64,000 nucleotides of DNA from Anaerolineae bacterium. Its GTDB lineage: Bacteria > Chloroflexota > Anaerolineae > Caldilineales > Caldilineaceae. The translations under genes were made by a program, and so were the position numbers. The stretch spans positions 62,001 to 126,000 of the forward strand of contig JAUIHI010000014.1 of the NCBI GenBank assembly GCA_030432295.1, written 5' to 3'. The notes under the pieces were generated by a model. That model worked only from the letters and a program-made list of their open reading frames with translations, had not been told where the DNA came from and did not search any database. How positions within the stretch are numbered: the first letter of the stretch is position 1; each line of letters starts with the position of its first letter. This document shows positions 7,001-19,301 of the stretch, piece after piece.

Positions 7001-9412
7001 CTATCCCTCCAATACCAACAAAGGGAGCGAAATGATAAAAGTGGTACCCTCGCCGACAACACTAAAACAACGAATGTCACCCCGGTGTCGGCGAAAGATC
7101 AGTCGACAACCGAATAGTCCACCGCCACGGAGCGCGCTCGATCGGTCCTTTGTACTGAAGCCTAAATCAAAGATACGCGAAAGCAGGTCGGGGGGGATGC
7201 CGGGTCCAGTGTCTACAACACTCACTTTGATCTGACGCTCTTCAATTTGATAACTTAGCGCCAATGTTCCCTCTCCCCGCATCGCCTCACACCCATTCTC
7301 AATAACTGACTGGAAGGCATCGCAAAGTATCTCCTGGTTTCCAGATATCCACAGCGCATGTTTCCAAAGCGGCGGTTTAAACTGAATATTCCCGCTAGGC
7401 AACACCAGTTGACAGGCTTGCTCCACCACGCAGCGTAGATCTAATTGCATAAAAGGTATGTGTCCTAGCCCTGTAATTGCTGTTAGTTTTTCGACCAATC
7501 CGAAGATACTGGCAATACGACGCTGAATCCGATCCAATGCAGTTAACCTGTCAGAGGATAGATCGGTGTCATCACGACGGGCAATATCCAGATTATAGGG
7601 AATATCCCCAATCGCGTTCGAAAGTCGGTGGCTAATGACAAAAGCCACTTCTTGCAGTTCCATTATCCGATCCAACTCCCGCTGGTAGGCTGCTTCCTTC
7701 TCTTTTTCTGTTGCTCGAATATGGGTTTCACTGGCCTCGATCAATCCCATCAACGAATCGCTGGCCCCGCCAACTTCCTGGCTATCGGGCTGGGCCAGCC
7801 AGCGCAAAGCTCCGTCCAGTTCCACCGGGTCGAGCAGACCGCCTGCCCGTTCCAGTTCTTCCCAGCGCTGGGCCGTGGACTCCAGCCGTCGCCGGGTCTG
7901 TTCGGCGGTACGGCGTTCGCCGATCCAGCCGCGCAGCAGCGCCCAGCCGCCGATGAGGGCCTCGTGGGCGATGTCCACCCGGCGTGTCGTCTCACCTTCA
8001 CCCCCGCTGGCGGTGAGCAGGCGGCGGTCGATGAGTGTCTGCAATGTGCTGGCAAAGAGGGCTGGGTCGTCGCCTGTCGCGCGCAGGTCGGTTTCGGCCA
8101 CCTGGCGGCGGGTGTCAGCCCGCCCCTCGCCAAACTGGATCAGGCGCAAAAAGATGCGCCGAGCAATCGGCTGGGCGGTCGTGGGCAGATTACTGTAGAC
8201 CACACTGGCCCGGCGGTCGATGGCAATTTGCAGACCGTTGCGCTCGCCCTCGGCCATGCCCGCGTAGGCCGCGGCGGGCAGGTAGCGCCGGGCCACTCCC
8301 TGCCAGAGCAGACGCAGACACTCCTGCACCAGAGGCAACGCCCCCTTTTCCCCCGCGGCGTCGCCGGTTAGCCGCTCCACCAGCAGGGGATCGACACTCA
8401 CCTCCACCTGGGCCGCGGGCTGCACAATCGCCGCGGCCAGTTCGGCCCGTCCCAGGGGTGGCAGGTCGAGCCGATTGGCCCCGATGGCAGGCCAGAGAGT
8501 GCAATCCATCAGTTCCGGGTAGAAGTCAGCGCGCACGGTGAGCAGAATGTGCAGATTGGGCTGGCCGATGAGGGCTTGCAGGGCATCGAGGAAGGGTTGG
8601 ATTTGGGCAGGATCGGATTGGGTGAAGAGTTCCTCGAATTGGTCGATGAAGAGGAGGGTGCGATTTCCCGGTAGAGGCGCGGACTGTAGAGACGCAAAAT
8701 TTTGCGTCTCTACGCCCAGGGCGGTTAGCGGTTTTGCGCCGGGACGCAGGGTGCAGATGTCCCAACCGCCGCTTCCGAATTGGCGGGAACGGCCCAGGGC
8801 GGGGATGACGCCGGCGTAGACGAGGGAGGATTTGCCGCTGCCCGATGGCCCGATGACGCAGAGGAAGGGGTGCAGGCGCAGGCGCTTGACCGCGTCGGCG
8901 ATCTCCCGGTCCCGGCCAAAGAAGAGGCTTTCCTGCTCGGTCGTAAAGGGGGTCATACCGGGATAGGGGCAGTCGGGAACTTCCTGGGCCGGGGCCAGGG
9001 GCGCATCAAGCAGCCGGGCGATCTTTTCCAGCGCGGCGGGCCAGCGTTCCGGTGTGGTGGCGTCCACCTCTACCTGATGTTTGAGGCGCAGGGGCAGTTC
9101 GACGGGTTGCAGAATCAGCGGCACAACCGGCCAGCTTCCCTCCCGGTTGCCGTGAAAGGTCGCGAGCAGATCGACAAATTCGCCGAAGCGGTCGCCTGTC
9201 CAGGCCGGGCTGAGGACGAGGACGACGTAGCGGCTCTGCACGACAGCCCGCTCGTACTCCTTCAGTAGGGGCACACCGGGCCGGAACTCCTCCTGTGTCA
9301 GGACGTTCAACCCGGATGCGCGTAGGGCATCGAGCAGATAGCCGTCCACCCAGGCTTCATCAGCCGGGGCGTAGGAGAGAAAGATGTCGTAGACGGGCGG
9401 TGATTGGGTCAT
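7001..9412 (-). CDS. TIR - STAND NTPase - histidine-kinase fusion protein
   Basis: An 803-residue cytosolic protein. Residues 7-135 form a TIR-like domain (YDIFLSYAPADEAWV; a Glu in GEFVDLL is a candidate NADase residue). The linker CPYPGMTPFTTEQESLFFGR (148-167) is typical of nSTAND1 ATPases. Walker A is GPSGSGKSS (188-196), Walker B LLFIDQFEE (253-261), and a helical STAND module runs to ~540. Residues 560-585 are a charged coiled coil. The C-terminus is a histidine-kinase core: a phospho-acceptor-like FVISHRLSNAIGDI (His595), N-box IENGCEAM (N706), D-box DTGPGIPP (734-741), F-box FDLGFSTK and G-box GGGLFG. STAND proteins usually carry WD40 or TPR repeats here, so the kinase tail is unusual. 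A role in sensing and triggering a cell-death or defence response is inferred. Confidence 0.85.
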   Translation of the reverse strand: MTQSPPVYDIFLSYAPADEAWVDGYLLDALRASGLNVLTQEEFRPGVPLLKEYERAVVQSRYVVLVLSPAWTGDRFGEFVDLLATFHGNREGSWPVVPLILQPVELPLRLKHQVEVDATTPERWPAALEKIARLLDAPLAPAQEVPDCPYPGMTPFTTEQESLFFGRDREIADAVKRLRLHPFLCVIGPSGSGKSSLVYAGVIPALGRSRQFGSGGWDICTLRPGAKPLTALGVETQNFASLQSAPLPGNRTLLFIDQFEELFTQSDPAQIQPFLDALQALIGQPNLHILLTVRADFYPELMDCTLWPAIGANRLDLPPLGRAELAAAIVQPAAQVEVSVDPLLVERLTGDAAGEKGALPLVQECLRLLWQGVARRYLPAAAYAGMAEGERNGLQIAIDRRASVVYSNLPTTAQPIARRIFLRLIQFGEGRADTRRQVAETDLRATGDDPALFASTLQTLIDRRLLTASGGEGETTRRVDIAHEALIGGWALLRGWIGERRTAEQTRRRLESTAQRWEELERAGGLLDPVELDGALRWLAQPDSQEVGGASDSLMGLIEASETHIRATEKEKEAAYQRELDRIMELQEVAFVISHRLSNAIGDIPYNLDIARRDDTDLSSDRLTALDRIQRRIASIFGLVEKLTAITGLGHIPFMQLDLRCVVEQACQLVLPSGNIQFKPPLWKHALWISGNQEILCDAFQSVIENGCEAMRGEGTLALSYQIEERQIKVSVVDTGPGIPPDLLSRIFDLGFSTKDRSSALRGGGLFGCRLIFRRHRGDIRCFSVVGEGTTFIISLPLLVLEG

Positions 9413-9869: not shown

Positions 9870-11951
9870 TCAACAGCTATCCGACAGCCAGATGATGGTT
9901 ATCCGATCTACCCGGGCCGACTGGCCGATGTTCTTGACCATAATTTCAAAGCCGTAGCCGTTGGAGGCTCGGCCCGGCCAGCAGAAGGTGTATTCGCCGG
10001 GCAGGTTCAGCCGCTGCTTGCCAAAGGAGAAGTTCTCCTGGGCTGGGCCGTAGTCGGTCGCGCCCGCATCCACTGGACCACTCCCTTCCAGCCGCACCCG
10101 GTAGAGTCCGTTTAAGATGTTGGGATAGTCCCCCGACCGGCAGTAGGGGCCGTAGACCAGCCGCTGGTCAAAGGCGCAGTTGTCGCCAAAGCCGCAATCC
10201 GTGCGGAAACGGCTGCACAGTTGGTTGCTGCTGCGGGGGTCGCCGTCGTAGAGGACGAAGGGACTTTGGGCGCCGCCGCCGTTGGAGCCACCGCGTAGAT
10301 CAACTGTAAAATCGGTACTCCAGTTTCCCGTGTCACCGCTGTTTTTCAGGAAGACCGTCACCTGTATGTTGTAGCTTCCCTTTTCAATCTGAATACCCGT
10401 ACTGGGCCATTTGGCCCCGGGGCTGAGGGTGAGCACATTGCAGTTGGGTTCACCGCCGCCAAAGGAGCAGTAGCCCGCGACATTTTCCCGCTGGGTGTGG
10501 ACCGTGCGGAAGTCGCCAAACTGCTCCTGAATCTCAAACTCCACGTGATCGATACCGTCGCCGTCCCGGTTGCCTTCGTCGGGGTCCCAGACAAAGGCAC
10601 GGAAATAGAGGCTGCGGCTGAAAGACGGATTGTCGGACGAGCCGGTGAACATCGAAATGTCAGCCACCAGCGAGCCATTCAGACCCGCACCGCCTCCACC
10701 GCCGATGCCGATCTCTGTGGGCGGGGTGGGGATGCGGGCGATGGGCGCGGTAGTCGGCGTAGACGTGGGCGTTGCTGTGGCGGGCCGTGTGGGCGTGGGT
10801 GGGATTACCCCCAGCCGCAGGCTGGAGACGGCTTTCGAGCAGACCACATATTGGGTGGCCCCACTCACCCAGCCGTTGAGTCCGGTGTCCGGGTCTTCGA
10901 TCTGCACCCACGTGGATGTGGCGTTGCGGGCCACCATTTCCACAACCGTTCCCCGGCGCAGTGAGCCGATGGGCGGCGTATATTCTGTGCCGGGGCCGTA
11001 GCGCACGTTGAGGGTGGAGGATTGGACCTCACAGGTGTCTGCGGAGGCAACGGGTGTCCTGGTGGGGGTCCGGGTCCGGGTAGGCGTTCGGGAAGGGGTC
11101 CGAGTCCGTGTGGGGGTGCGGGTCGCGCTCCCGGACGAGCGGACTGTGCGGGTAGCCGTCGGTGTTCGGGTAGCCGTTGGCCGGCTAGACCCGGCAGCGG
11201 AGCCGTCGCCCGCAGCCAGATCGAACGACAGGCTATAGGCGCCCGCGTCCAGCCGGGTGGCCCCAGAGACCAGAATTGTATAGTTGCCGGAGGCAGGCAG
11301 GACGAAATCGGCGATCTCGGCGTCGCTGGAACGCCCGCTGTTGTCGTCGTAGGCCAGAAGCTCATCGTCGCCGCTGCGGTAGAGTTCCACATAGGCGTCG
11401 AAGTCATCGCTGATGGCCTGGACCGTCACCACATCCCCCGCGCAGCCCCGAAAGCCCCAGGCCGCAAGCTGGCGTGTACGGATCGTGCTAGTCATTGTGG
11501 CGCCGGGCGCGATCAGCCCGTCCACATCCTCCTGTTTGGCCGAGCCGCTGGTGTCGAGAGTCAATTCGTAGAGACCCCGATCCGTGCGCCGTCGGGCTGC
11601 GGCGATGAGCAGATAGCTTCCCGAATCTTCCACCACAAAGCCGTCGATCTGGGCGTTGTCGTCTGCGCCGTCGGCCTCGACCAGCGGCTTCACTCCGTCG
11701 GTGGCGTAGAGTTCCAGATAGGGGGTGAATTTGTCGCTCTGCATCGTAACAGTAATGGCGTTGCCCGCGCAGGCGGTGAAGAGCCATTCGTCGCCGGCAG
11801 CGTTCTTAATATCGCCGCTGGCAGGCAGACCCGCAGTCAGAATCATCGGCTCCTGTGCCTGGGCCGATAGCCGGGTCATCCCCCACAGGAGCAACCCACC
11901 CAGCAAGGCGGTCAGCAACAGAGCAATTGAGCGTGTTGGTCTGATTGTCAT
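9870..11951 (-). CDS. Secreted PPC-domain/SH3b protein with Thr-Pro-Arg linkers
   Basis: 693 residues. An N-terminal signal peptide (hydrophobic 8-25, ALLLTALLGGLLLWGM) is followed by two bacterial pre-peptidase C-terminal-like (PPC) beta domains (~35-130 and ~140-250; both have YLELY/YVELY and GSYLL/GNYTIL strands). Then comes a low-complexity TPTRTRTPT linker, an SH3b domain (~310-375; STLNVRYGPG, GWVSG), a second Pro/Thr linker, and a novel ~250-residue C-terminal beta-rich domain with several cysteines that may form disulfides. Its ATG overlaps the stop of the upstream TPR gene (ATGA), so translation is coupled. PPC and SH3b domains suggest binding to cell-wall or surface ligands outside the membrane. 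Confidence 0.85.
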   Translation of the reverse strand: MTIRPTRSIALLLTALLGGLLLWGMTRLSAQAQEPMILTAGLPASGDIKNAAGDEWLFTACAGNAITVTMQSDKFTPYLELYATDGVKPLVEADGADDNAQIDGFVVEDSGSYLLIAAARRRTDRGLYELTLDTSGSAKQEDVDGLIAPGATMTSTIRTRQLAAWGFRGCAGDVVTVQAISDDFDAYVELYRSGDDELLAYDDNSGRSSDAEIADFVLPASGNYTILVSGATRLDAGAYSLSFDLAAGDGSAAGSSRPTATRTPTATRTVRSSGSATRTPTRTRTPSRTPTRTRTPTRTPVASADTCEVQSSTLNVRYGPGTEYTPPIGSLRRGTVVEMVARNATSTWVQIEDPDTGLNGWVSGATQYVVCSKAVSSLRLGVIPPTPTRPATATPTSTPTTAPIARIPTPPTEIGIGGGGGAGLNGSLVADISMFTGSSDNPSFSRSLYFRAFVWDPDEGNRDGDGIDHVEFEIQEQFGDFRTVHTQRENVAGYCSFGGGEPNCNVLTLSPGAKWPSTGIQIEKGSYNIQVTVFLKNSGDTGNWSTDFTVDLRGGSNGGGAQSPFVLYDGDPRSSNQLCSRFRTDCGFGDNCAFDQRLVYGPYCRSGDYPNILNGLYRVRLEGSGPVDAGATDYGPAQENFSFGKQRLNLPGEYTFCWPGRASNGYGFEIMVKNIGQSARVDRITIIWLSDSC

Positions 11952-13651
11952 TCTCCGTTTCCTTCCTCTTCAAGCGCCTGCTTTGCTGTCTCGGCGCTAT
12001 CGCGATAGGGCACACAACTGCATTCCAGGACTTTCTTCTGAAAGACCGGATAGCCGAGGGTGGCCTCTTTCTGGTCGATACAGGCCTGATACGCCCAGAC
12101 AGTATCGCCCAACAGGGCGATTGTGCGCGCTCTGGCGGCTGCGGCCTCGTCTGCTTTGCCCGCTTCTGTAGCCAGGAAATCATCCACCGAGGCCAGATGG
12201 GCCTGCAAACGGTAGGTCAGCCCCAGCCCCATCTGGGACCAGGCAAAATAGACCGGCGACTCCTCCACCGGGAAGGCGGTCACGGCTGTTTGCAATTGCC
12301 CCGCTGCGCTGGACAGGGCCTGACCAGCCGGTTCGTACTGCTGCTCAAAAATGCGGGCCAACCCTAACACCCGGTAGGCCAGCCCCAAATTCATATGCAC
12401 ATATGGCTCAATCGGCGGCCAGAAGGAGGTGGGAGCGAGCCGGGCAGCCGCTTCCAGATAGGCCACTGCCTGCTGGGCGTCGGCAGCCGCGCCTTCCAGT
12501 GTCTCCGCCGCGGCTTCGATATTTTTGACAGACGTGCAGGCCGCTTCCTCCGCGCTCAGCTCCCGTCCTTGCACGAAGTAGAGTTGCGCCCGGTCCATAT
12601 AAGTCAGGCCAAGCAGTGCATAGCCGTTCACATAGTCCGGGTTGATGGCAATGGCCGTCTCTCCGGCCCGGATGGCCTCTTCAAATTCTCTGGAGAAAAG
12701 CGCGGCCCGCCCTAGAAAGAAGTAGAGTATCTCCTTGCCGTCGGCCGCGGGCCAATTGGTTAGCCGCTGCTCGGCTTCCTGCAGAATTTTCAGGGCCGTT
12801 TCCGGCTGATTGGCAAAGTCGTAGGAGAAGGCCTGGGTCAGCCAAAAGACCACCCCACTGCGCAGGTTGAGAGCGGGGGTCATCTGGAGTTTGGCCGTGG
12901 ATTCGTGGCGGGGATCGTCCAGGGGCACATCGGCGGCAATCGTCGCGCCCATCTGGTGGCTGCCCGTGGCCGCGTCCGGTTCGTCGGCAATGGCCGGGGA
13001 ATTGTAATAGAACTCCAGCACCAGCCCTTCCGGGGAGCCGTCGGGGGTCAAATAGCCGTAGATGACGATATTGGCGTTGATGCGTCGGGCCAGGGCCGCG
13101 GCCGCGTCCGAGCGTTCTTTGGGCGTTGGGCCTTCGATCACCCCAAAATGGACATTCTTCTCGCCCTGCTCGGCTGGCATTGTGTCGTGCCAGATCAGCA
13201 CGTCACTGACGGGTGTGCGGCTAGCTTCGCCCGGAGAAGCGCTTCTGATCCCTTCGTATTGGGTGGTCAGTTCCTCATACATCGCCGCGCTCAGGTCGGC
13301 GCCGAGGGCCGAACTTTTCATCTCTCCGTTTTGGAGCAGCCCAAAATCGGCCACAGCGATGTTCAGGCTACCCCGCATCTGCCACGGGTTCCACATCGGC
13401 TCGGCCAGGGGATAGAGAAAATAGCCAGCAATGACCAGCACCGCCAGGGCAATCACCAGCACATACGGCGTGATGTTGCGACCACCCACATTGAGCTGGA
13501 AGATATTCTTGCCCACGGCCACATTCTGGCTGCCCTCGCCCACCTGGGCGATGACCACATCCCGCCGGGCCAGGTCGCGTACCCGCTGCCACTGGGCACG
13601 CAGCCAATTCTGTTGCTCCGGGCCGTTCGATTGCGGGCTGTTCTCGCTCAT
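11948..13651 (-). CDS. Membrane-anchored TPR protein with adaptor motif
   Basis: 567 residues. Residues 1-60 are cytosolic and contain VGEGSQNVAVGKNI (37-50), almost identical to a motif in the adjacent CHAT protease. A single transmembrane helix follows (~62-81, YVLVIALAVLVIAGYFLY). Next is an alpha/beta domain (NIAVADFG...VIYGYLT) reminiscent of FlgO/CsgG-like folds, then TPR-type helices from ~270 (ALKILQEAEQRL, AIRAGETAIAINPDYVNGYALLG) to the end. The stop overlaps the start of the secreted PPC/SH3b gene by four bases. It probably links a cytosolic partner to the outside of the cell; the functional link to the CHAT protease is inferred from the motif and gene order. Confidence 0.85.
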   Translation of the reverse strand: MSENSPQSNGPEQQNWLRAQWQRVRDLARRDVVIAQVGEGSQNVAVGKNIFQLNVGGRNITPYVLVIALAVLVIAGYFLYPLAEPMWNPWQMRGSLNIAVADFGLLQNGEMKSSALGADLSAAMYEELTTQYEGIRSASPGEASRTPVSDVLIWHDTMPAEQGEKNVHFGVIEGPTPKERSDAAAALARRINANIVIYGYLTPDGSPEGLVLEFYYNSPAIADEPDAATGSHQMGATIAADVPLDDPRHESTAKLQMTPALNLRSGVVFWLTQAFSYDFANQPETALKILQEAEQRLTNWPAADGKEILYFFLGRAALFSREFEEAIRAGETAIAINPDYVNGYALLGLTYMDRAQLYFVQGRELSAEEAACTSVKNIEAAAETLEGAAADAQQAVAYLEAAARLAPTSFWPPIEPYVHMNLGLAYRVLGLARIFEQQYEPAGQALSSAAGQLQTAVTAFPVEESPVYFAWSQMGLGLTYRLQAHLASVDDFLATEAGKADEAAAARARTIALLGDTVWAYQACIDQKEATLGYPVFQKKVLECSCVPYRDSAETAKQALEEEGNGE

Positions 13652-13679
13652 TGTTTGTCGCTATCTGTATCAGAAAGGA

Positions 13680-13829
13680 GCCACTGATGAACACTGATAA
13701 ACGCGGATGGGTACAGACTCGATATAGGGCCAGCGCTGGTCAAAGCTGAGCAGTCATCAAAATCTGCGTCTGCTATCAGAGTTCATCAGTGTGCATCAGT
13801 GGCTCAAATGGCTCTTGCGGTAGAGCCAC
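13680..13829. repeat. Palindromic ~10-bp-phased repeat element abutting the CHAT gene end
   Basis: CACTGATGAACACTGATAAACGCGG on the left is mirrored by TTCATCAGTG/GCATCAGTGG units at 13781-13800. The terminal hairpin GTGGCTC (13799-13805) with GAGCCAC (13823-13829) overlaps the last codons and the stop of the CHAT gene, so the repeat encodes its final residues. Confidence 0.8.
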
Positions 13830-15420
13830 CAAAGCGCTTGCGCAGCCATTCCACCGCTCTCTCACCGGCCCGGCCCACCACACGACCGACCGCAGGTGTG
13901 GCGAAGAGACCAGTCAATACTTCGGCCAGTTCGGGCAGATTGTCCAGCAGCCAGTCGCCGATTTGGGTGATGGTGCTGGCGCTGGGGGTTTCGCTCTCGT
14001 CCACTTTGGAGAGTTCACCCCGCAACAGTTGCAGTTGAAACTGGGCCATCTGGGCCTTCATCCCGTCGATCTGCCCCTGTTTAGCCGCCAGCGCAGCCTC
14101 GACCCCGGCCAACTGTTGACCGATAATCTCTTTGTCGTCGGGGGTCGGCTCGCCCAGCATTTCGTAGACTGTCTGGGTGATATTCTTGCCGACCGCCACA
14201 TTTTTGGACCCCGCGCCCACATTGGCGATGATAAAGTCACCGCCGCCGAAGTCGGAGACATTGATGCCCCCCACGGACGCATTCTGATCCCCAACTTTAT
14301 TCCACCACGGCTCTTGTTTTTTTTCAGCCACAGCCTCACCCTCATTCTCTGTTTGTAGTGAAAAGAGTCGTCCCTCTTCGCAGCGGATGAAAAGCGCGGG
14401 TGTGGCCCACTCCTGATTCCCGGCGGTGGAGAGGGCGATTCTGGCCTGGGCCAGGGCTGCCTCCACGGGGTAGTCCGCGGCCACAGCCTCGTAGAAAGCG
14501 CCTGCCAGCAGCGACGCCGCGCCATCCGAAATTTCCCGCTGCATGGCAATGGCGGCGGGGATGCCCTGCTGCACAAGGGTCTGGGCCACACCGCTGAAGA
14601 CGTCGGCCTGGGAGCCGATGGCCCCTTCACAGGCATTGAGAAAGACCAGGCGCAGGGAGCGGTGGTTGCGCAGGAGCGTTGCCACATCCGACGCCGCCAC
14701 CAGCGACGCGTGGCCGTCGTTGTCAGCGAAGACCATCCCGCCCGTCTCGCTCTGCCCGTCGTAAAGGCCGTGGCCGACAAAATGCAGAATGTGCGCTGGT
14801 TCCTGGAGCAGCCTTCGGCGCAGCCCGTCCAGGGTGGACGATGCCAGCCGCTCCAGCACCAGACCGCCGGACGCCTGCAACGGGGCCAGGGCTTCGCTCA
14901 GCCCAGCCCACTCCTGTTCCACATCCAGCCCCTCCATATCCGCCGGACTGACCAGCACAGCCAGCATCCGCAGGGGCGGCTGCACGTGCAGGACCTCCGG
15001 TTCGGGCAGATTCAGGGCCAGATAGCGCACGAGTTGGGTGCGTTCGTCCAGGGCCAGAAAGAGCCGGGCCCCGGCATCGTAGAGCAGTTCCCAGGGTAGG
15101 GCCGCCAGTTCGGGGGTTCGATTCAGGCGCAGATTGAGGCGCAGGCCGTCGCCGTCGTCGATGCGGGCCATGCTGCTGTGCAGGGCAGTCCCGATGGGTC
15201 CAGAAAAGAGGGCGCCGAAGAGGGCCGCGCCCAGCCAGCGCACCTGTTCGGCGTCCGGGTGGCCGCTCTGCCAACCATCGATGTCCGCCTGGGTCAGGGG
15301 CAAGGCGAAGGCATCCTCGGCCTGACCGACCGGCGAGCGCAGCACTTCCACCCGGTAGCCGCCCCGGTCGTCATAGGCAAAGGAGATGTCAAAAGGGCGG
15401 TAATGACCGGTGAAAGGCAT
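13804..15420 (-). CDS. CHAT-domain caspase-like protease with C-terminal adaptor motif
   Basis: 538 residues from the ATG at 15420, chosen because the protein then begins like its paralogue at 17153 (a beta-rich N-domain, GGYRVEVLRSPVG). The CHAT (caspase HetF-associated with TPRs) fold carries the catalytic pair: His217 in HFVGHGLYD and Cys264 in FLNACEGA. The start of the CHAT core is marked by ELAALPWELLYD. After the protease, residues ~375-415 hold glycine-rich strands ending in VGAGSKNVAVGKNI, shared with the membrane TPR protein encoded next. A predicted coiled coil (~420-475) and a helical tail follow. It is probably a cytosolic cysteine protease activated by a partner. The last residues (GGSTARAI) come from a dispersed repeat. 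Confidence 0.88.
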   Translation of the reverse strand: MPFTGHYRPFDISFAYDDRGGYRVEVLRSPVGQAEDAFALPLTQADIDGWQSGHPDAEQVRWLGAALFGALFSGPIGTALHSSMARIDDGDGLRLNLRLNRTPELAALPWELLYDAGARLFLALDERTQLVRYLALNLPEPEVLHVQPPLRMLAVLVSPADMEGLDVEQEWAGLSEALAPLQASGGLVLERLASSTLDGLRRRLLQEPAHILHFVGHGLYDGQSETGGMVFADNDGHASLVAASDVATLLRNHRSLRLVFLNACEGAIGSQADVFSGVAQTLVQQGIPAAIAMQREISDGAASLLAGAFYEAVAADYPVEAALAQARIALSTAGNQEWATPALFIRCEEGRLFSLQTENEGEAVAEKKQEPWWNKVGDQNASVGGINVSDFGGGDFIIANVGAGSKNVAVGKNITQTVYEMLGEPTPDDKEIIGQQLAGVEAALAAKQGQIDGMKAQMAQFQLQLLRGELSKVDESETPSASTITQIGDWLLDNLPELAEVLTGLFATPAVGRVVGRAGERAVEWLRKRFGGSTARAI

Positions 15421-15657
15421 TGGGCGGTAGTCCCCTGAAATGTGCGGCGAACAGCCGATAGCGGATAGTGACAGCGTAACACACTCCGGGCACGGAGACA
15501 ACCGGTGCAAAAGTGGGCCATTGGCCAAACGAGTGCTTGTACATCAACCCACACCTGGCTGGTGAAAGCGTTCCACCTTCCGCTTTGACGATCCATCGCG
15601 TCCGGGTCTACAATGGGTGGCGGTATCGAACCAATCACTCCACCCAGCGAGAACCCT

Positions 15658-17059: not shown

Positions 17060-17152
17060 GTATATTCCACTTTTGGCTTGCCGCGCCTGCCCACCCTATG
17101 CTATCATTCCCCAGCAATCCAACCGTCATCTTCCTCACTCGCGCCGCCTACT

Positions 17153-19136
17153 ATGCCCAACTACCTGACCTACCTGGACTTTGAGATCGACGTGCGCGCC
17201 GACGACGTGAACGGTGGCTACACTGTCGCCGTTGTCAGTTCGCCCGCGGGGGAAGAACGGGCCGTCGCCTTTCTGCCCTTCGGCGAATTGGAACTGAAGA
17301 ACCGCCTGCTGGAATTGCAAAACGCGCTGCTCCGTTCCGGCGGCGTGCGTCGTCGGGGGCTGACCGTCCACGAACAGACCGTCCAGAACTTTGGCAAAGA
17401 ACTCTTCGACTTTCTGTTGCCCGGCGAAGTGCGCAGCCTCTACCGCACGAGCCGGGGCAAGGCCGTGGCCGGGGGACAAGGACTACGCCTGAAACTGCGC
17501 ATCAGGTCCCGCCGGCCCTGGCCGCCCTGCCCTGGGAATTTCTCTTCGATTCCGCCCACAACGAATATCTCTGCCTCTCCACCCAGACGCCTCTGGTGCG
17601 CTATTTAGAACTGGCCCACCCGCCCCAGATTCTGGCCGTGACCCCACCCCTGCGCATTCTGGGGCTGATCGCCAGCCCGGAGGGACTGGACAGACTGGAC
17701 GTGGAACTGGAGAAGCAGCGGGTGGAGAAGGCACTGGCCGATCTGCTGGCCGACGGGCTGATCGAACTGCACTGGCTGGAGGGCCAGACCCGGCGGGACC
17801 TGCAGCGGGCCATGCGGCGTGGCCCCTGGCACATCTTTCACTACATCGGCCACGGCGGTTTTGACCCCATCCACCAGGAAGGATTGCTCTTTCTGGCCGA
17901 CGCCGCGGGCCAGGCCGAGGCCCTCACCGCCCGTCAGCTCGCTACGATTCTGGGCGATCATTCCTCCCTGCGCACAGTCTTTCTCAACGCCTGTGAGGGA
18001 GCGGCCAGCAGCCAGACCGACCTCTTCTCCGGCACAGCCGCCACACTGATGCGCCGGGGCATCCCCGCGGTGCTGGCTATGCAGTACGCCATCACCGACC
18101 GGGCCGCCATCGAATTCACCACCACCCTCTACGAGAGCCTGGCCGATGGCTACCCGGTGAACGCGGCTGTGACCGAAGCCCGCAAAGCCATCTCCCTGGC
18201 TGTCAACCATTCGGTGGAGTGGGGCACGCCGGTGCTGCATATGCGCGCGCCGGATGGACAGATATTTGAACTGCAAGGCGGAGGGGAAGGCAAAAGGCAA
18301 AACGGAGAAGGCAAAAGTGGTAGTGGCGTTGTGCCGGTTGTGGAGGTGGTTCGAGTACCCGCGGAAGTAGCGACGGTGCGGGCGTCAGTTGTGACGCCCC
18401 CAGCACCCCAATCGCCCATCCAAATCGATTGGGTGACGATCCCCGCCGGGGAATTTTTGATGGGCAGCGACCAGGCCAAGGATTCGATGGCATACGACGA
18501 TGAATTGCCCCAGCACCGGGTCTATCTGCCCGAATACCGCATCAGCCGCACGCCGGTGACAAACAGCCAGTATTTACATTTTGTCGAGGCAAAAGACAAC
18601 CAATACTGGCGCGTTGGAATGACGGCAAGATTCCGAATGGCAAGGAAGATCACCCGGTCGTCACTGTCTCCTGGCACGACGCCCAGGCTTTTTGCAGATG
18701 GGTTGGGGCGCGCTTGCCCACGGAAGCGGAGTGGGAAAAGGCGGCACGGGGCACGGATGGGCGCATTTGGCCCTGGGGCAATGAATTTCCGACCGTTAGC
18801 CACGGCAACTTTGACCGCAATGTTGGCTCGACAACGCCGGTCGAGATGTACCCCGCGGGGGCCAGCCCCTACGGAGTGCTGGATATGGCGGGTAACGTTT
18901 GGGAGTGGACGCAAAGTCTGTGGGGGAAAAATTCCCAGGAACCGGAGTACGGCTATCCCTACCGGTCAGGTGATGGACGTGAGAACCTACAGGCCACCGA
19001 CGACGTTCGTCGTGTGTTGCGTGGGGGGGCGTTCGTCGTCGACCATTCCGACGTGCGTTGCGCCTGTCGGAACAAGCTCTACCCGGACTTCTGGAGAGGG
19101 TACTTCGGGTTTCGTCTCTTTTCCCCCGGCAGTTGA
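17153..19136 (+). pseudogene. CHAT protease-FGE-sulfatase (C-type lectin fold) fusion, split by two frameshifts
   Basis: Read with two one-base corrections it gives ~661 residues. The first frame runs from ATG 17153 to ~17502 (N-domain like that of the CHAT gene at 13804). The CHAT core continues in a second frame (PALAALPWEFLFDS; His in HYIGHGGFD, Cys in FLNACEGA) to ~18618. A third frame completes an FGE/SUMF1 domain (DWVTIPAGEFLMGS...LPTEAEWEKAARG...GNVWEWTQ) to 19136. Restoring one C near 17503 and one A near 18619 recovers family-like sequence at both breaks. FGE domains use a C-type lectin fold for ligand display; CHAT is the protease effector. If the breaks are real the gene is dead; if they are sequencing errors it is an intact sensor-protease fusion. 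The tail resembles a DGR variable region. Confidence 0.8.
19020..19136 (+). other. Candidate DGR variable region at the end of the FGE domain
   Basis: From RGG (19020) to GFR (19107) the scaffold positions match FGE domains while the intervening codons are almost all NNY: TTC GTC GTC GAC CAT TCC GAC, TGC GCC TGT, CTC TAC, GAC TTC, TAC TTC. That is what adenine-directed mutation of AAY codons in a DGR template would give. No template repeat or reverse transcriptase was seen in this window. Confidence 0.5.
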
Positions 19137-19249
19137 TCCTCTGTCCTCTGTTTTTCTCTGGTCTCTGGCAAACGATGGCACTCTGTGCTTTTGCCCGGCT
19201 GCCGCGCAGCCAAGCCGGGCGGGGGTCTGGGGGCGCTGCCCCAGTGCGC

Positions 19250-19275
19250 ATCGCCGTCAGGCGATCTATTTTTTT
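19250..19275 (+). terminator. Intrinsic terminator after the CHAT-FGE gene
   Basis: ATCGCC (19250-19255) and GGCGAT (19260-19265) flank a GTCA loop, followed by CTA and a run of T to 19275. Confidence 0.65.
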
Positions 19276-19301
19276 TAGATAGAACAGCCCCGCTCGTCGG
19301 C

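Follow-up and report, generated by a model that had tools for sequence, protein, structure and literature searches.

How might a cytosolic protease come under the control of a membrane protein encoded beside it? The question is raised by the window analysed here, a 64,000-nucleotide stretch of contig JAUIHI010000014.1 from a Litorilinea-like Anaerolineae bacterium of the Caldilineaceae, in which three consecutive minus-strand genes encode a CHAT (caspase-HetF-associated) protease, a TPR protein with a single transmembrane (TM) helix and a secreted protein. An earlier reading of the stretch (the original prediction) had proposed that the protease and the TPR protein share a short motif through which the protease is recruited to a receptor. 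The interpretation that we favour, with moderate confidence, is that these genes constitute a membrane-receptor signalling operon of Anaerolineae in which the shared motifs dock homotypically and would thereby recruit the CHAT protease.

The shared motif and its matching within pairs

Residues 401–414 of the CHAT protein (counted from the ATG at 15420; VGAGSKNVAVGKNI) and 37–50 of the TPR protein (VGEGSQNVAVGKNI) are identical at 12 of 14 positions, as originally described, and the best local alignment of the two proteins extends the match to 18 identities over 29 columns with a score of 83. Shuffled sequences scored 43 on average and 77 at most among 500 (Gumbel P 1.3e-4 for the full proteins), and when the receptor N-terminus, the cytosolic segment, is used alone, P is 2.6e-8. 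At five of the identical positions the two genes have different, synonymous codons, which argues against a recent DNA copy and for selection at the protein level. On the effector side the motif (DFIIANVGAGSKNVAVGKNITQTVYEML) spans 14155..14238 (-), with its 14-residue core at 14179–14220, and is located C-terminal to the CHAT domain and ahead of a helical tail of ~120 residues; on the receptor side (DVVIAQVGEGSQNVAVGKNIFQLN) it occupies, with its flanks, 13484..13561 (-), with the core at 13502–13543. Both copies are predicted by AlphaFold2 to be disordered, with pLDDT values of about 48–59 and below 50, respectively.

Could this be a low-information glycine-rich element that is common in Chloroflexota and shared without functional meaning, as the original prediction itself allowed? 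Related GN-IAIG stretches are indeed found before NB-ARC domains in the class, and an aldolase contains the short core as a chance match. However, a relaxed six-frame DNA pattern run across the 6.7 Mb host genome picks out the CHAT and receptor genes only (reversed control 0), and a strict pattern gives 21 matches in 396 genomes against two for the reversed control, most of them within the receptor system and the others mostly in chance-like frames. The motif is moreover absent from all 15 receptors that carry a fused effector, described below. We regard this explanation as very improbable.

To place the window operon among its relatives, receptor homologues were extracted together with their flanks and around 60 loci were annotated, using open reading frame (ORF) calls made without a trained gene finder and local profiles built for the CHAT domain, the ectodomain, the tail, the motif, the secreted C-terminal domain and TIR. 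Being homologous, these loci are not mutually independent. Homologues of the receptor are present in 33 of 120 relatives and in 61 of 396 Anaerolineae genomes (E<=1e-10), the named relatives being Litorilinea aerophila metagenome assemblies (MAGs; 77–80% identity), other Caldilineaceae and Anaerolineae, and the cultured Anaerolinea thermolimosa. In a phylum-wide sample the family was found in five of 251 genomes, three of them Anaerolineae including the host, and is thus nearly class-restricted. The carriers of the system are filamentous bacteria. A search of viral contigs returned no relative of the system, leaving a phage origin without support, and a search of plasmids with the CHAT protein returned distant CHATs only, the best of which (from Arthrobacter) has neither motif nor tail.

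In 15 of 16 paired loci, the best match of the receptor N-terminus among neighbouring genes is the partner immediately upstream, and always at the motif (P 2e-4 to 5e-9); the motif does mark protein pairs in relatives, a check that the original prediction had proposed. The exception is L048, where direct comparison with the CHAT protein gives a score of 62. No such neighbour match is seen in nine loci whose receptors have EAD or helical N-termini or which lack an adjacent partner. In one genome (G004) the motif-bearing CHAT is encoded on a contig other than the receptor's, making the link independent of adjacency. Four loci (L054, L125, L132 and L133) carry a second motif type, IGAGAxVxQxAxGRNIxQ, on both sides, whilst in L131 a different repeat, GGxNISGG...GDxVxGDKI, is common to both proteins. 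To judge from these sequences, a change of motif type occurs in both partners together, and across 21 hand-curated pairs similarity is higher within pairs than between them (62.1 vs 41.9, permutation p 5e-5).

The same comparisons bear on a heterotypic arrangement, in which the receptor motif would bind the partner's helical tail and the partner's own motif would serve as an internal autoinhibitory pseudo-ligand. The tail is well folded and always accompanies the motif in the cytosolic partner, and partners without CHAT retain motif and tail alike. Yet L133 has the type-2 motif on both sides despite a window-type tail, which points to motif–motif over motif–tail matching, the L131 receptor is matched by the different shared repeat, and motif agreement in the family tracks the partner's motif and not its tail type. 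We consider the heterotypic arrangement unlikely.

Motif and fusion in the receptor family

The operon is conserved among relatives with its gene order kept, in agreement with the original prediction, and its stable core comprises a cytosolic protein in which the motif and helical tail may be joined to a further domain, a receptor with the order motif, TM helix and ectodomain, and a secreted protein or lipoprotein with a conserved C-terminal domain. In L044, L046, L048, L057, L049 and L138, as in the window, the further domain is CHAT; it is CHAT followed by a TCAD2-type tail in L054 (identified by Pfam), with similar tails in L125, L131 and L132. EAD7 takes this place in other loci, at the N-terminus in L140 and L149 and at the C-terminus in L134, and the same EAD7 architecture is seen in L128, L135 and L148. 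In L127, L136, L137 and L150 the motif–tail gene has no additional domain and no protease, and in the close relative L041 most of CHAT has been lost. These conserved protease-free operons, together with L041, rule out CHAT as an obligatory partner. The motif is not CHAT-specific, being carried also by adaptors without a protease.

In 15 receptors an effector is fused directly before the membrane helix: CHAT in L043, L051, L056, L120, L142 and L157, TIR in L052, L053 and L145, and nSTAND1 in L156, L158, L175, L176, L177 and L181, of which L176 belongs to the cultured strain Anaerolinea thermolimosa IMO-1. None of the 15 has the motif, whereas it is present in 29 receptors that have no fused enzyme (Fisher 5e-6); in the TIR-fused L145 a run of GDK repeats is present in place of the motif. 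A further 14 receptors have neither a fused enzyme nor a detected motif and mostly begin with an EAD (at the N-terminus of L050, L129 and L143) or with another helical domain (L121, L123, L124 and L130).

A maximum-likelihood tree of the ectodomains requires 14 changes of slot type; even if only its well supported branches are counted, the motif label must have changed at least four times, and so must the CHAT-fusion label. The closest branch to the motif receptor L022 is its CHAT-fused sister L056 (support 100/100), and the clade containing the window receptor groups with the CHAT-fused L043 (97/81). Mutual exclusion of motif and fusion, combined with repeated switching between them, suggests that receptor and effector can be linked interchangeably by the motif or by a covalent bond. 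We take this swap to be the strongest evidence in the analysis, and it supports the proposed recruitment of the protease.

It also bears on whether the two motifs touch at all, since each could instead dock one common third protein. Shared docking sequences are common in signalling proteins, and the data show a likeness of motifs only. The host genome, however, has no third motif-bearing gene, and a ligand common to both proteins need not disappear when effector and receptor become fused. A third-protein arrangement is thus, in our estimation, quite improbable.

The three proteins of the operon

The CHAT protease gene lies at 13804..15420 (-), with an alternative upstream TTG start at 15528, and was identified by its match to Pfam PF12770 (E 7.5e-30; domain boundaries 14416..15231 (-)) and by the His and Cys of the catalytic dyad, found in HILHFVGHG and LNACEG. 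Dyad residues are present in 14 of the 16 family CHATs that were checked. The NCBIfam HetF model also matches the domain at 2.7e-15, far below the cut-off of that model. The original description of the CHAT domain and of the motif position was accurate; what it overlooked was the helical tail behind the motif (aa 451–568 of a 574-aa ORF; 13825..14178 (-)), which alignment shows to be common to CHAT and CHAT-less partners. AlphaFold2 models the tail as a confident helical bundle with pLDDT 92–98 over most of its length, its fold has no match and its sequence no relative in the PDB, and in some relatives Pfam TCAD2 occupies its position.

Motif–tail sequences also occur elsewhere. Stand-alone motif–tail proteins (L151, L152, L155 and L221) are encoded with no receptor of the family nearby in the genome or contig, and the module is therefore wider than the receptor system. 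Two further proteins (L205:4992-7730 (-) and L153:6801-9545 (-)) contain a pair of Ser/Thr kinase domains, with EAD7 matching weakly in between, and end in a tail of the motif–tail type; kinases may use the same plug. The motif–tail region (aa 112–191) of the 250-aa L149 adaptor gives a weak match to the PADLOC AbiTi profile (4.4e-5), a hint of a distant link to AbiT abortive-infection proteins.

The receptor gene (11948..13651 (-)) encodes a single-pass protein that matches Pfam TPR_2 (1.9e-6) and whose AlphaFold2 model (pTM 0.79, mean pLDDT 85) runs from the disordered motif through a TM helix at aa 61–87, directly C-terminal of the motif, to an alpha/beta domain and a TPR superhelix. The TM helix (13391..13471 (-)) has a hydropathy of 2.55 and is continuous in the model, and neither Pfam nor the model reveals an NTPase domain in the window receptor, which has TM and TPR regions. 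Lys and Arg residues are more abundant on the motif side of its TM helix, and the same bias towards the segment before the helix is seen in 33 of 38 homologues (p 7.9e-7). By the positive-inside rule this places the motif inside, as had been claimed, and the ectodomain (alpha/beta plus TPR; 11966..13393 (-)) outside. Near its C-terminus the ectodomain contains two cysteines, C524 and C546, that are invariant in the family.

The start of the third gene (9870..11951 (-)) overlaps the stop of the receptor gene by 4 bp, as expected from the proposed coupling of the two. Its product had been described as a secreted PPC/SH3b protein: the signal peptide-like N-terminal stretch and the SH3b domain (SH3_3, 5.6e-8; 10857..11018 (-)) are there, PPC, at 23.3 bits, does not reach the Pfam cut-off of 25.9 bits, and neither domain is conserved, SH3b being missing in most relatives. 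A PPC/SH3b region as the conserved sensor part is thereby ruled out; what is conserved is the C-terminal domain alone, an unnamed domain at aa 439–566 (10254..10637 (-)) with an invariant Cys pair in YCxFGGGEPxC. Orthologues at the same position are mostly lipobox proteins. The invariant cysteines of ectodomain and partner and the lipoboxes of the partners agree in suggesting that both are extracytoplasmic, and the operon context would fit a sensor role for the secreted partner.

Two other genes of the window deserve mention. Just downstream of the operon, positions 7001–9412 (-) encode a fusion of TIR_2, nSTAND1 and a histidine-kinase-type HATPase_c, an unusual combination of which BLAST found no full-length copy in the loci of 20 relatives, and which therefore probably stands outside the operon. 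At 17078–19278 (+) a second CHAT gene, followed by an FGE/SUMF1-like sequence, is split over two or three frames and is thus probably frameshifted or a pseudogene.

Motif kind, known systems and proposed mechanism

The original prediction recognised no described system of this arrangement. It does have a precedent in kind, because a short motif common to a receptor and an adjacent effector is what defines the BASS amyloid signalosomes of multicellular bacteria, among whose recorded effectors is CHAT (PMC7889193; the NLR/BASS signalosomes are those of Dyrka et al. 2020, as relayed in PMC7889193 and PMC8086366). As in BASS pairs, a short Gly/Val/Asn/Gln-rich motif is common to the receptor and effector of adjacent genes; unlike them, the window receptor is a single-pass membrane protein with no nucleotide-binding domain, a secreted partner is present and the effector motif is followed by a helical tail. 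The system thus appears to be NLR/BASS-type signalling in a variant form, with a membrane receptor in place of the NLR, and since the window receptor is no NLR we do not file it as a BASS pair.

What kind of element might the motif be? A BASS3 (RHIM-like) peptide from Frankia (VDLRDAKGVQVGDGNVQINRF; PMC8086366) aligns with the motif core without gaps (p 0.002 against its own shuffles). An archaeal BASS3-like peptide aligns weakly (p 0.026) and the fungal sigma peptide does not align (p 0.75). Searching the PDB with the motif profile returned chance sequences only, chiefly an aldolase loop, and did not retrieve RHIM structures. In genome G016, which encodes the motif receptor L047, an NB-ARC–TPR protein (L202:451-2658 (-)) starts with GDTIRAQIGEQSELIAVGKNITQ, the same motif as in that receptor; Pfam identified only the TPRs, and NB-ARC was read from the P-loop region and from similarity to other NB-ARC-like proteins. 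The N-terminus of NLRs is the classical place of amyloid signalling motifs, and the G016 protein suggests that this very motif is used by NLRs. These pointers favour a RHIM/BASS-like cross-beta element.

Homotypic docking could also take the form of a small stoichiometric beta-hairpin or beta-roll that is not amyloid, with the rest of the mechanism the same. Any homotypic docking would be in keeping with both the covariation and the exclusion, and the Gly/Val-rich repeat character of the motif, along with the GDK-type repeats of L145 and L131, would suit a beta-solenoid. Set against this are the gap-free alignment with the BASS3 amyloid peptide and the N-terminal position of the motif in the NB-ARC–TPR protein, and we hold the beta-hairpin or beta-roll to be somewhat unlikely. 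A further group of NB-ARC-like proteins in the class (L238, L245, L249 and L257) begin with other short glycine-rich stretches, such as GGNITVGDIVNSEAIAIGDGARAEV, which are possibly additional unclassified signalling motifs.

PADLOC finds no described gene set in the operon, and we do not file it as a known anti-phage defence system: the CHAT domain gives weak partial matches only (SAVED_CHAT, chat), and the receptor and secreted protein match nothing. The EAD-type systems (2020, PMC7159879; 2021, PMC8195603) resemble the window system in having interchangeable effectors and homotypic adaptors on a core, and EAD7, EAD1 and TCAD2 occur in its relatives (EAD7 and EAD1 in several adaptors or receptors). 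A search of the text of PMC7159879 found neither CHAT nor TCAD. In contrast to these systems, the core of the window system is a membrane receptor without MoxR–vWA, what is shared is short and disordered, a motif instead of a folded helical domain, and Pfam finds no EAD in the window operon. HetF and TPR-CHAT/Csx29 have the CHAT fold and His–Cys dyad in common with the window protease, which differs in lacking TPRs on the same chain and any link to CRISPR or cell division, and in having a separate membrane partner.

The death-receptor scheme comprises an extracellular sensing domain, one TM helix, a small homotypic cytosolic element, an optional adaptor and a caspase-fold protease. The window family would work similarly, either via an adaptor or by direct recruitment of the protease. 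With the metazoan death receptor–FADD–caspase-8 pathway and the RHIM necrosome (for RHIM, PMC7889193), this is an analogy of architecture and not a claim of homology for receptor or adaptor.

On the homotypic reading, the ectodomain, probably with its secreted or lipoprotein partner, would sense a cue outside the cytoplasmic membrane, and clustering of receptors would gather their short cytosolic motifs. These would engage the motif of the CHAT protein homotypically, as the sequence covariation suggests, most likely by RHIM/BASS-like cross-beta templating, and so do the job that covalent fusion does in sister proteins. Recruited CHAT proteases would be activated by proximity and cleave their substrates, and the company of CHAT, TIR, nSTAND and EAD suggests that the outcome is probably defence or cell death. 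Where CHAT is absent, a motif–tail adaptor with or without EAD7 would take its place and could hand the signal to other EAD-bearing effectors. The swap between motif and fusion makes it probable that a signal from outside is relayed to the protease in a way resembling the recruitment of caspases by death receptors in animals. More tentatively, and with rather less confidence than in the docking itself, the whole may be an NLR-independent prokaryotic amyloid pathway, in which a TM receptor and secreted co-sensor pass on an extracellular cue, either to a caspase-like protease by cross-beta templating or to other effectors by way of death-fold-like EAD adaptors. Such a pathway would be the bacterial equivalent of death-receptor and RHIM signalling.

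Several points count against this interpretation. Most of the genomes are draft MAGs, and the pairs and counts were curated by hand from ORF calls. Amongst type-1 pairs alone the covariation is weak (62.8 vs 60.0, p 0.03), a difference too small for any claim of one-to-one specificity within type 1. Since only the effector's motif is followed by a conserved tail, motif–tail contact is possible. The likeness to BASS3 rests on a single short peptide, and a 15-residue motif core is also found, by chance, in the loop of an unrelated aldolase (GAAGVAVGRNIFQ).

A review from the field asks whether the signalling amyloids of fungi and bacteria are also used in NLR-independent pathways (PMC7889193). 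The receptor family described here is a concrete, testable candidate, its motif being found both on membrane receptors and on the NLR of one relative, and the natural motif-free fusions show the motif's purpose and act as built-in controls. If the interpretation is correct, the system would widen homotypic-motif immune signalling in multicellular bacteria from the cytosol to sensing outside the cell, and would offer a simple system for how membrane receptors switch on caspase-like proteases.

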